Part shown: positions 39,395 through 42,398 of the stretch, in pieces
Numbering within the stretch: the stretch's first letter is position 1
How the letters are laid out: each line of letters opens with the position of its first letter
Assembly: GCF_947500605.1 (NCBI RefSeq)
Contig: NZ_CANMSJ010000001.1
Span: forward strand, 186,001 to 250,000
Direction: 5' to 3'
Source: an uncultured Lacinutrix sp.
GTDB taxonomy: Bacteria > Bacteroidota > Bacteroidia > Flavobacteriales > Flavobacteriaceae
DNA length: 64,000 nucleotides
Made by a program: the position numbers and the translations under genes
Notes under the pieces: model-generated
What the model saw: only the letters and a program-made list of their open reading frames with translations
The model's database searches: none
What the model was told of the DNA's origin: nothing

Positions 39395-39586
39395 ATGAGT
39401 ACAGGAACAGTAAAATTTTTCAACGACACAAAAGGATTTGGATTTATTACAGAAGAAGGAGTAGACAAAGATCACTTTGTACACGTTTCAGGATTAATCG
39501 ATGAGATTAGAGAAGGAGACGCAGTTGAATTTGACCTTCAAGAAGGAAACAAAGGATTAAACGCAGTTAACGTAAAAGTTATCTAA
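39395..39586 (+). CDS. Cold-shock protein 2 (CspA family)
   Basis: This 63-aa cold-shock domain has KGFGFI and DHFVHVS RNA-binding motifs, nearly identical to the copies at 34.7 and 41.1 kb. It begins MSTGTVKFFNDTKG. The 5' leader and 3' terminator are shared with copy 3, which indicates duplication of the whole transcription unit. Its promoter is not clearly consensus. Its probable role is as a single-strand RNA/DNA chaperone. Confidence 0.93.
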   Translation: MSTGTVKFFNDTKGFGFITEEGVDKDHFVHVSGLIDEIREGDAVEFDLQEGNKGLNAVNVKVI

Positions 39587-41029: not shown

Positions 41030-41070
41030 ACTTGTATAAAGTAATTATTAAAATTAAATATAATACTATT

Positions 41071-41262
41071 ATGAGTAAAGGAACAGTTAAATTTTTCAAC
41101 GACACAAAAGGATTTGGATTCATCACTGAAGAAGGTGTAGATAAAGATCATTTTGTACACGTTTCAGGACTAATCGATGAGATTAGAGAAGGTGACGAAG
41201 TTGAATTTGACCTTAAAGAAGGAAACAAAGGATTAAACGCAGTTAACGTAAAAGTTATCTAA
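41071..41262 (+). CDS. Cold-shock protein 3 (CspA family)
   Basis: This 63-aa cold-shock domain begins MSKGTVKFFNDTKG, with KGFGFI and DHFVHVS motifs. It differs from copy 2 at only a few residues (SKG for STG, DEVE for DAVE, LKEG for LQEG). Start at the ATG at 41071; an in-frame TTG at 41032 would add 13 residues but falls in the conserved leader. A strong terminator follows, after which the palindromic repeat array begins. Confidence 0.93.
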   Translation: MSKGTVKFFNDTKGFGFITEEGVDKDHFVHVSGLIDEIREGDEVEFDLKEGNKGLNAVNVKVI

Positions 41263-41388: not shown

Positions 41389-41461
41389 GTCATTGTGAGC
41401 GCAGCGAAGAATCTCTTTTATAAAACAATAGATTCTTCAGTCGTTCATCCTTCTGAATGAC
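41389..41461. repeat. Palindromic element, copy 1 of the array
   Basis: A 73-bp imperfect palindrome. The outer arms are GTCATT and AATGAC, the inner arms GAAGAATCT and AGATTCTT(C), and the short central loop is A/T-rich. The left arm reads GTGAGCGCAGCG where other copies have CAGAGCGCAGCG. Confidence 0.85.
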
Positions 41462-41531
41462 AATACATTGATATTTTTTCATTACAAGTAGAATTAAGTG
41501 TAGCGATATAACTGCTATTAAGAGCATTATT

Positions 41532-41604
41532 GTCATTCAGGTCGCAGCGAGGAATCTCTATTATAAAACAATAGATTCTTCAGTCGTTCCTCCTTCTGAA
41601 TGAC
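41532..41604. repeat. Palindromic element, copy 2 of the array
   Basis: A 73-bp copy with left arm GTCATTCAGGTCGCAGCGAG and right arm ending TCCTTCTGAATGAC. It starts 143 bp after copy 1. The spacer before it (beginning AATACATTG, then TTTTTTCATTACAAGTAGA) is itself repeated after later copies. Confidence 0.88.
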
Positions 41605-41676
41605 AATGCATTGAGATTTTTTTTCATTACAAGTAGAAATGTTAATAGTTTTATAGCTGTTATTCAGAACATTACT

Positions 41677-41703
41677 GTCATTCAGAGCACAGCGAAGAAT
41701 CTT
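41677..41703. repeat. Palindromic element, copy 3, left arm only
   Basis: The left arm (GTCATTCAGAGCACAGCGAA, then GAATCTT) lies in phase, 145 bp after copy 2. Its right arm is missing: only AGATTCTT remains at 41732-41739, directly before the GIY-YIG start codon. Confidence 0.8.
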
Positions 41704-41754
41704 AAAATTCAATAACATAACCATTAACAAAAGATTCTTTTATATCTTTAAGTT

Positions 41755-42060
41755 ATGAAAATTCATGCTTCCCATAATTACTATGTTTATATACTTACAA
41801 ATAAAAACAAAACAGTATTATATGTTGGAATTACTAATAATTTAAAAGAAAGACTCTATTTTCATAAAAATCCACTTCCTTTTTCAAAAGCATTTACGAG
41901 TAAATATAAATGTTATTATTTAATTTATCATGAGCATTTTTTTAATATTGAAGATGCTATAAAAAGAGAAAAACAAATTAAAGGAAAAAGTAGAGCTAAG
42001 AAAGAAATATTAATTAGTGAATTTAATAAAAATTGGTCATTTTTAGATGAAACGATTTAG
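41755..42060 (+). CDS. GIY-YIG family small nuclease within a palindromic repeat array
   Basis: This 101-aa single-domain GIY-YIG endonuclease has YYVYILTN (GIY strand), VLYVGITNNLKER (YIG strand and conserved R) and the metal glutamate region EDAIKREKQIKGKSRAKKEILI. Small UvrC-like proteins of this type are numerous in Bacteroidetes and of unknown role. The gene is flanked on both sides by copies of one palindrome and takes the place of the right arm of copy 3. A -7-like TATCTTTA lies 4-12 nt before the ATG, so the mRNA may be nearly leaderless. Confidence 0.9.
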   Translation: MKIHASHNYYVYILTNKNKTVLYVGITNNLKERLYFHKNPLPFSKAFTSKYKCYYLIYHEHFFNIEDAIKREKQIKGKSRAKKEILISEFNKNWSFLDETI

Positions 42061-42082
42061 AGCTTCCATTCAAAGTATTACT

Positions 42083-42157
42083 GTCATTCAGAGCGCAGCG
42101 AAGAATCTCTTTTTATAAGGTTGTTAGATTCTTCAGTCGTTCCTCTTTCTGAATGAC
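42083..42157. repeat. Palindromic element, copy 4 of the array
   Basis: A 75-bp copy starting 22 nt after the GIY-YIG stop, with left arm GTCATTCAGAGCGCAGCGAA and right arm ending TCTTTCTGAATGAC. The loop differs from the others (TCTTTTTATAAGGTTGTT). Confidence 0.88.
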
Positions 42158-42244
42158 AATGCATTGCGTTTTTTTATAACAAGTAAAAATGTTAGTAATT
42201 ATATAGTTGTTATTAAAATCATTACTATCACTCAGAGTATAACT

Positions 42245-42318
42245 GTCATTCAGAGCGCAGCGAAGAATCTTCTATTATAGAACAATAGATTCTTCAGTCG
42301 TTCCTCCTTCTGAATGAC
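42245..42318. repeat. Palindromic element, copy 5 of the array
   Basis: A 74-bp copy with left arm GTCATTCAGAGCGCAGCGAA and right arm ending TCCTTCTGAATGAC, starting 162 bp after copy 4. The preceding spacer includes ACTATCACTCAGAGTAT, which looks like a further eroded left arm. Confidence 0.88.
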
Positions 42319-42371
42319 AATGCATTGAGATTTTTTTCATTATAAGTAGAGTTTTTAGTAGCTTTATAACT

Positions 42372-42398
42372 GTCATTCAGAGCGCAGCGAAGAATCTA
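42372..42398. repeat. Palindromic element, copy 6, left arm only
   Basis: GTCATTCAGAGCGCAGCGAA followed by GAATCTA marks a left arm with no right arm. The array ends here, 13 nt before the stop codon of the DMT transporter gene on the minus strand. Confidence 0.8.

Follow-up and report, generated by a model that had tools for sequence, protein, structure and literature searches.

A window of 64,000 nucleotides from an uncultured Lacinutrix sp. (contig NZ_CANMSJ010000001.1, positions 186,001 to 250,000 of the forward strand; hereafter, the window) contains a small gene for a single-domain GIY-YIG nuclease, which is framed on both sides by palindromic repeats. What is the relation between this gene and the repeats? 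We consider it probable that the palindromes are the cognate targets of the nuclease, and that the two spread as a unit comparable with the REPtron, the pairing of repetitive extragenic palindromes (REPs) or REPINs with a RAYT transposase. An association of gene and repeats, a shared tag, co-diversification, a separation of types within one genome, and the presence or absence of whole units were observed. This recurring pairing suggests that the enzyme acts on the repeats and that gene and repeats together are mobile in genomes.

The array occupies positions 41389-42397 of the window; its members are four heterodimeric palindromes, each 73-75 bp long, and two left arms that stand alone. The short arm is named left and the long arm right. 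Six left arms and four right arms are present, and the nuclease gene lies between copies 3 and 4. The z values below are those of the DNA hairpin fold of the four full copies.

41389..41461, + strand: palindrome copy 1 (left arm 41389-41414, right arm 41430-41461; fold z -2.9)
41532..41604, + strand: palindrome copy 2 (left arm 41532-41557, right arm 41573-41604; fold z -4.2)
41677..41702, + strand: copy 3, left arm alone (match to the arm pattern)
41732..41739, + strand: AGATTCTT, 8 nt, a possible remnant of the start of the copy 3 right arm (weak; read from the sequence)
41755..42060, + strand: single-domain GIY-YIG nuclease gene, 101 amino acids (PF01541, E 8.8e-16; core residues intact)
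42083..42157, + strand: palindrome copy 4 (left arm 42083-42108, right arm 42126-42157; fold z -4.9)
42245..42318, + strand: palindrome copy 5 (left arm 42245-42270, right arm 42287-42318; fold z -5.5)
42372..42397, + strand: copy 6, left arm alone (final element before the chromosomal flank, which is conserved in the relative G001)

The counts of four full palindromes and two left arms given in a preliminary description of this DNA were confirmed, and neither arm was expected by chance in the window (expectation 0 in 100 dinucleotide-preserving shuffles per arm). That description had also put the gene in the exact place of the missing right arm of copy 3. The place is roughly correct, but the exactness did not hold: the left arm ends at 41702, AGATTCTT follows at 41732-41739, and the gene begins with its ATG at 41755. 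All 10 arms in the window start with TGTCATT; nine of them start with GTCATTCAG, and the left arm of copy 1 with GTCATTGTG. When single arms were folded alone, one short arm gave -0.3 kcal/mol (z +1.1) and one long arm -2.9 kcal/mol (z -1.0), neither better than shuffles.

The predicted protein matched PF01541, the GIY-YIG superfamily, with 58.4 bits (cut-off 22.6). The residues Y12, Y23, G25, R33, H37 and E72 are invariant in an alignment of 14 homologues, and the catalytic role of the GIY-YIG core residues is well established. The AlphaFold2 model of the protein had a mean predicted local distance difference test score (pLDDT) of 92.2. The best Foldseek match of this model was the UPF0213 protein 1zg2 (E 6e-4, TM about 0.5), followed by Slx1 and UvrC domains with E values above 0.01. 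The UPF0213 proteins 1zg2 and 1ywl were the two best matches in a profile search of the PDB; they are similar in length to the window protein and likewise have a GIY-YIG domain. Both the active-site residues and the fold place the window protein in the GIY-YIG superfamily.

The arms were then counted in the whole source genome. The exact pattern gave 49 arms (26 forward and 23 reverse), which is a lower bound, since it misses two of the 10 window arms (the left arms of copies 1 and 2); the reversed control pattern gave 0. When arms less than 1 kb apart were joined, the 49 arms fell into 23 places, most of them with one exact-pattern arm. Eight exact-pattern dimers were found genome-wide, each composed of a short and a long arm. 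Of the 49 arms, 8 lie within 1 kb of the window gene, and none lies that close to the two further single-domain GIY-YIG genes that protein similarity revealed in this genome. Two near-identical single-domain GIY-YIG paralogues, 47% identical to the window protein, are located at contig 1, 378114-379209 (loci L032, L033 and L041). They form a tandem duplication of a gene with an array of a different palindrome, GTCATTCCTGCGAAGGCAGGAATCC and its variants, which is of the CGTC-1-like kind. The source genome keeps two separate nuclease-palindrome types. RAYT was ruled out as the mobiliser of the window palindromes, because the Y1/RAYT transposase family PF01797 had no match in this genome.

Other arms of the source genome were also inspected. 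No such nuclease gene was present in the two stretches checked among the other arm clusters, and contig 4 has a 415-amino-acid frame of another kind between arms. A GIY-YIG frame at contig 11:59555 stands beside one arm. Its sequence is that of a different kind of GIY-YIG protein, and the idea that it is a decayed window gene was dropped. The start of contig 5 (L044, 1-733) and the end of contig 14 (L046) are inside arrays of the window palindrome type. The assembly probably breaks in these arrays, and a nuclease gene could lie in the gap. At contig 5, 99666-99829 (L045), three left arms occur as direct repeats with a spacing of 69 bp; elsewhere the arms form dimers of opposite orientation.

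To what extent is the arrangement shared by related genes? In the genus set (13 genomes, 38 matches), many homologues were located between repeats of several kinds, for example GTCATTGCG.., GTCATTACG.., GTCACTTCG.. and GTCACACTG... By a simple test, in which a 9-mer with GTCA[TC] had to recur on either side of the gene at a distance of up to 600 bp, 16 of the 26 relatives' loci were positive; L063 was left unscored. The phylum set comprised 198 genomes, 133 of them with a family match, and the higher-scoring rows came from 75 genomes. From these, 70 homologues were taken, one per genome: 30 from the search (one being from the window's own genome) and 40 as the first row of each genome. G024, G105, G112, G131 and G146 were left out, and 58 genomes with weaker matches are outside the sample. 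A repeat score of at least 18 between the left and right 400-bp flanks was obtained for 49 of the 70 homologues, whereas it was reached by 0 of 29 cold-shock genes (30 were fetched, and one at a contig end was excluded) and by 34 of 1000 cross-genome pairings. Among the 40 loci with long flanks, 27 had repeats on both sides; of 78 control blocks beside the gene, 1 did. The preliminary description had named homologues mostly lacking nearby palindromes as an outcome that would overturn its reading; this outcome did not occur among the homologues sampled.

The most enriched flank 5-mer, determined with no prior motif, was GTCAT/ATGAC. It occurred 368 times in the 70 loci and 15 times in the 29 control loci, about tenfold more per base, and it was present in 66 of 70 homologue loci versus 11 of 29 control loci. 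From locus to locus the body of the palindrome changes, but the tag stays largely constant. Tandem duplications of gene-plus-array units were found in three cases (L032/L033, L055/L067 and L065/L073). It might be supposed that terminator-like repeats simply came to stand beside an unrelated small gene, by coincidence or passive hitch-hiking, and the scatter of the repeats over 23 places of the genome would agree with this. However, the controls of the flank, copy-number and tree enrichment tests and the recurrence in several phyla contradict such an explanation, which we regard as scarcely credible.

The palindrome type was compared with the nuclease tree, the four letters after GTCA being used as the label. 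From 133 loci, 121 frames of 60-130 amino acids without stops were obtained (L063 was not entered), and these were reduced to 104 homologues, 70 of which carried a label. Near-identical proteins and the tandem duplicates or duplicate fetches L033, L067, L073, L082 and L194 were dropped. With 52 labelled rows, 26 type changes were counted on the tree, compared with a mean of 36.8 after shuffling, and 0 of 1000 shuffles were as low. After addition of loci selected by clade (70 rows), the numbers were 29 and 44.1. The label of L032 was a tie, for which TTCA was chosen although its array is of the TTCC kind; this choice probably works against the observed result. A query from one clade, searched with a closer alignment and matching mostly Flavobacteriaceae, found GTCATTCCT on both sides in 20 of 34 loci (Winogradskyella, Hyunsoonleella, Algibacter, Hanstruepera and others). 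The palindrome type follows the nuclease tree, and this is co-diversification.

These results bear on an alternative in which the nuclease clears structures: it would resolve palindrome hairpins or cruciforms, protecting replication, and would stand beside the array for regulation. The full palindromes do fold strongly, and Slx1 structure-specific nucleases are the next fold matches after UPF0213, albeit at the E values given above. However, a general hairpin nuclease would need neither the tracking of type and clade nor a shared GTCAT tag. We therefore consider this alternative very unlikely.

Does the pattern extend beyond Bacteroidota? A tblastn search of plasmid records with the paralogue gave 34 records, of which 16 were fetched, mainly close duplicates being left out; these 16 loci have no control of their own, and 12 of them had repeats on both sides with a score of at least 18. 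A locus of Spirosoma (Bacteroidota) scored 17 and had tags on both sides. In the loci of Photobacterium and Rhizobium tumorigenes, tagged repeats were found on the right side only, and the locus of Sphingomonas paeninsulae (32% identity) had no flanking tagged repeats. The tag was CGTCAC in S. meliloti and Sphingobium and CGTCG in Novosphingobium. The homologue of N. gonorrhoeae, at a locus which we take to be ssn, is 47.7% identical to the paralogue L032 over 81%, and dRS3-type CGTCATTCCCGCGCAGGCGGGAATC was found on both sides of it. The nuclease-plus-repeat pattern extends to Proteobacteria, including Neisseria dRS3, and to a cyanobacterium. On the Planktothrix agardhii plasmid (L232), the nuclease and its palindromes have as neighbours a gene annotated as an MmeI-type restriction enzyme on one side and one annotated as DISARM drmA on the other.

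Whole units and their empty sites were also compared. The gap between sufB and sufC of Azospirillum lipoferum 4B holds the gene, flanked on either side by one CGTC dimer. The sufB-sufC gap of A. ramasamyi, A. oryzae and Azospirillum sp. B510 is 87-129 bp long and contains neither the gene nor such palindromes. These three and eight more Azospirillum records, among 15 listed, gave a two-piece match spanning 916-1013 bp versus 1501. Shinella sp. PSBB067 has its own nuclease copy, with one CGTC repeat on each side, in the same kind of place, and no nuclease unit was present at the sufB-sufC-type place of S. meliloti. At the site of the window array, the gene is missing from G001, which carries a single full palindrome and one left arm there; in G002 the site is a short intergenic stretch free of such palindromes. 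Insertion of the unit, not repeated loss, is the simpler reading. At position 305852, the source genome and G001 carry different palindrome types.

GIY-YIG is a known homing-endonuclease fold. The gene might accordingly be a homing-like selfish gene, which cuts palindromes lacking the gene and is copied in by break repair between repeats; the palindromes would then be landing sites and not passengers. The window site, at which G001 has palindromes alone and the source genome a gene among palindromes, agrees with such a process, as do the tandem duplications of gene and array in the three other cases. The Azospirillum unit, however, occupies a place at which the three aligned relatives lack such palindromes, so that homing into pre-existing palindromes cannot be the only process. 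In addition, the sequence similarity after copies 3 and 6, examined as a direct repeat of the chromosomal flank, was weak (82 of 2000 shuffles were equally good), and this candidate was dropped. On balance, homing is an unlikely explanation.

The preliminary description had proposed that palindrome numbers be compared between genomes with and without the gene. Within the genus, equal numbers in close relatives, the other refuting outcome that it had named, were not found: 49 window-type arms were found in the source genome and 0-13 in the other 12 genomes, all of which have homologues, the best at most 54% identical to the window protein. In the phylum set, the loose pattern GTCATTSN{8,20}SAATCY gave 5800 hits and 537 control hits in 198 genomes. 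After subtraction of the control, the median was 20 hits in the 133 genomes with a family match and 8 in the 65 without, and at least 20 net hits were found in 68 of 133 versus 6 of 65, in a comparison that ignores kinship and in which related genomes are not independent data points. Several genomes of this set speak against the reading. G014, a single contig, has 418 pattern hits, yet the only GIY-YIG frames found in it are 609 and 460 amino acids long. It was counted in the group with the gene by a weak match (E 9.3e-4); when it is moved, the numbers become 67 of 132 and 7 of 66. Long frames may likewise underlie other family matches as weak as that of G014. In G091, G145, G022 and G179, which have 58, 50, 36 and 27 pattern hits, the GIY-YIG frames found were also long ones only. 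Thus, the nuclease is either unneeded for the persistence of the palindromes or was lost after their spread. The hits of G014, among those listed, are mostly uniform GTCATTGCGAGG palindromes, and one (L279) has other tagged palindromes nested inside.

The disregard of kinship and the palindrome-rich genomes with only long frames weigh against an enzyme spreading with its targets, and the following points must be added to them. The 70 homologues are the higher-scoring ones, a bias to be set against the count obtained with them, and 21 of the 70 remained below the score for both flanks. The simple tag test was failed by 10 of the 26 genus loci, some of which have other inverted repeats, and no clear flanking repeat pair was recognized on inspection of L070-L072 and L075. 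The tag is not absolute, GTCAC being used in some families and CGTCG in Novosphingobium. A lone short arm of the window family forms no stable hairpin. Furthermore, no clean insertion of a lone palindrome was found among the gaps listed for the 200 kb compared with G001.

The abundance of palindromes in genomes in which no single-domain gene was found is also in line with a function for the host. The nuclease would then be a gate that cuts single-stranded DNA at the repeats and controls the uptake or recombination of foreign DNA; the palindromes would be genome-wide marks that spread otherwise. The N. gonorrhoeae homologue between dRS3-type repeats fits this idea, as does the effect on transformation that is reported for the Ssn nucleases of Neisseria (see below). 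However, a gate leaves unexplained why the gene is embedded in its own palindromes (49 of 70), why a unit stands between sufB and sufC, and why different nuclease-palindrome pairs occur in one genome. A gate is in our opinion conceivable, though rather unlikely.

Based on these results, we return to the reading of an enzyme with its cognate targets. Binding and cutting of the palindrome, and cutting as the cause of spread, are inferred from the enzyme class and from the analogy with RAYT and REP. The window protein would be a single-domain GIY-YIG endonuclease of the kind whose partners across bacteria are palindromes with a GTC tag (GTCAT in most cases, GTCAC in others). The palindrome would most likely be bound as a single-strand hairpin, in the lagging-strand template or in incoming single-stranded DNA, and cut at the conserved tag or close to it. 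Together with the palindromes around it, the gene may insert as a block, and the flanking palindromes may spread as non-autonomous copies. Recombination between copies could produce the arrays and the tandem duplications of gene and array. The preliminary description had proposed a GIY-YIG enzyme in a RAYT-like relation to palindromes. The architecture proved widespread and no PF01797 match was found, and the role in mobilisation or maintenance is still a supposition.

In a wider form, which we offer as a tentative possibility, single-domain GIY-YIG nucleases would be the dedicated enzymes of the whole superfamily of CGTC/TGTC-tagged REPs, converging on the RAYT-REP relation with an unrelated enzyme class. 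Clade-specific nucleases would read the body, cut at the conserved GTC tag and move the elements, with several pairs kept separate in a cell. If this is true, a large set of nucleases specific for sequence or structure would become available, with cognate sites that can be read, and it may explain arrays at which assemblies break, as at the contig 5 start and the contig 14 end.

Near the array, near-identical cold-shock protein genes lie at 39395-39586 and 41032-41262 of the window, on either side of a desaturase-like gene (read from its frame) that adjoins the array. Matches to the desaturase-like gene vary in number and place across the genus genomes.

How do these elements compare with known systems? 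CGTC REPs "apparently lack a dedicated transposase", according to the abstract of Di Nocera et al. (2013; PMC3733652). As described in passages of that survey, in which the CGTC palindromes were defined, they occur in five phyla, their mover was left open, they include Neisseria dRS3 and Rickettsia RPE-4/RPE-6, and their carriers comprise S. meliloti, A. lipoferum, N. aromaticivorans and Neisseriae. They share with the repeats studied here a GTC tag (CGTC or TGTC) at one end, the palindromic form, many copies, frequent pairs of opposite orientation, and heterodimers in several families. Of the unpaired CGTC, TGTC or CCTC tag that marks one end of such repeats, the TGTC form stands at the start of all 10 window arms, and the many copies as dimers of opposite orientation have their counterpart in the 49 arms, 23 places and 8 dimers. 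The GTCATTCCTGCGAAGGCAGGAATCC array of the paralogues can be read as the 8-bp stem and 4-nt loop described in that source for CGTC-1. In contrast, the window arms, with the TGTCATTC tag, do not have the stem of 8-9 bp and loop of 4-5 nt per unit of CGTC REPs, as judged from the two folded alone. The window palindromes are therefore classified as CGTC-like, outside the four CGTC families.

The Ssn nucleases (Nat. Commun. 2025) are reportedly GIY-YIG enzymes that cut single-stranded DNA site-specifically at Neisseria NTS repeats and affect transformation. Like the enzyme described here, they are said to be single-domain GIY-YIG proteins with a cognate repeated sequence, and the window nuclease is probably their relative. 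The window gene differs in lying inside a heterodimeric palindrome array. If the Ssn paper already covers the repeats flanking the homologues, the present finding is a new member. Among the top matches of a literature search with incomplete journal coverage, no paper joined GIY-YIG to CGTC REPs, and neither the CGTC REP link nor evidence of insertion as a unit was found in any of them; a term search of the RepRanger text (PMC12306157) gave no occurrence of nuclease, RAYT or transposase.

As in the REP/REPIN-RAYT system, a small enzyme gene is framed by its own palindrome pairs, which are also scattered genome-wide, and the tag is conserved while the body varies. The enzyme of the REPtron is a Y1/HUH protein (TnpA-REP), whereas here it is a GIY-YIG protein in a genome with no PF01797 match, and the tag is GTAG in REPIN/RAYT and GTCAT here. 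For the missing dedicated enzyme of CGTC REPs, these nucleases are obvious candidates. With a recurring nuclease partner, a shared tag, types kept side by side and empty sites, the question of what moves CGTC REPs becomes a plain biochemical and genetic test.
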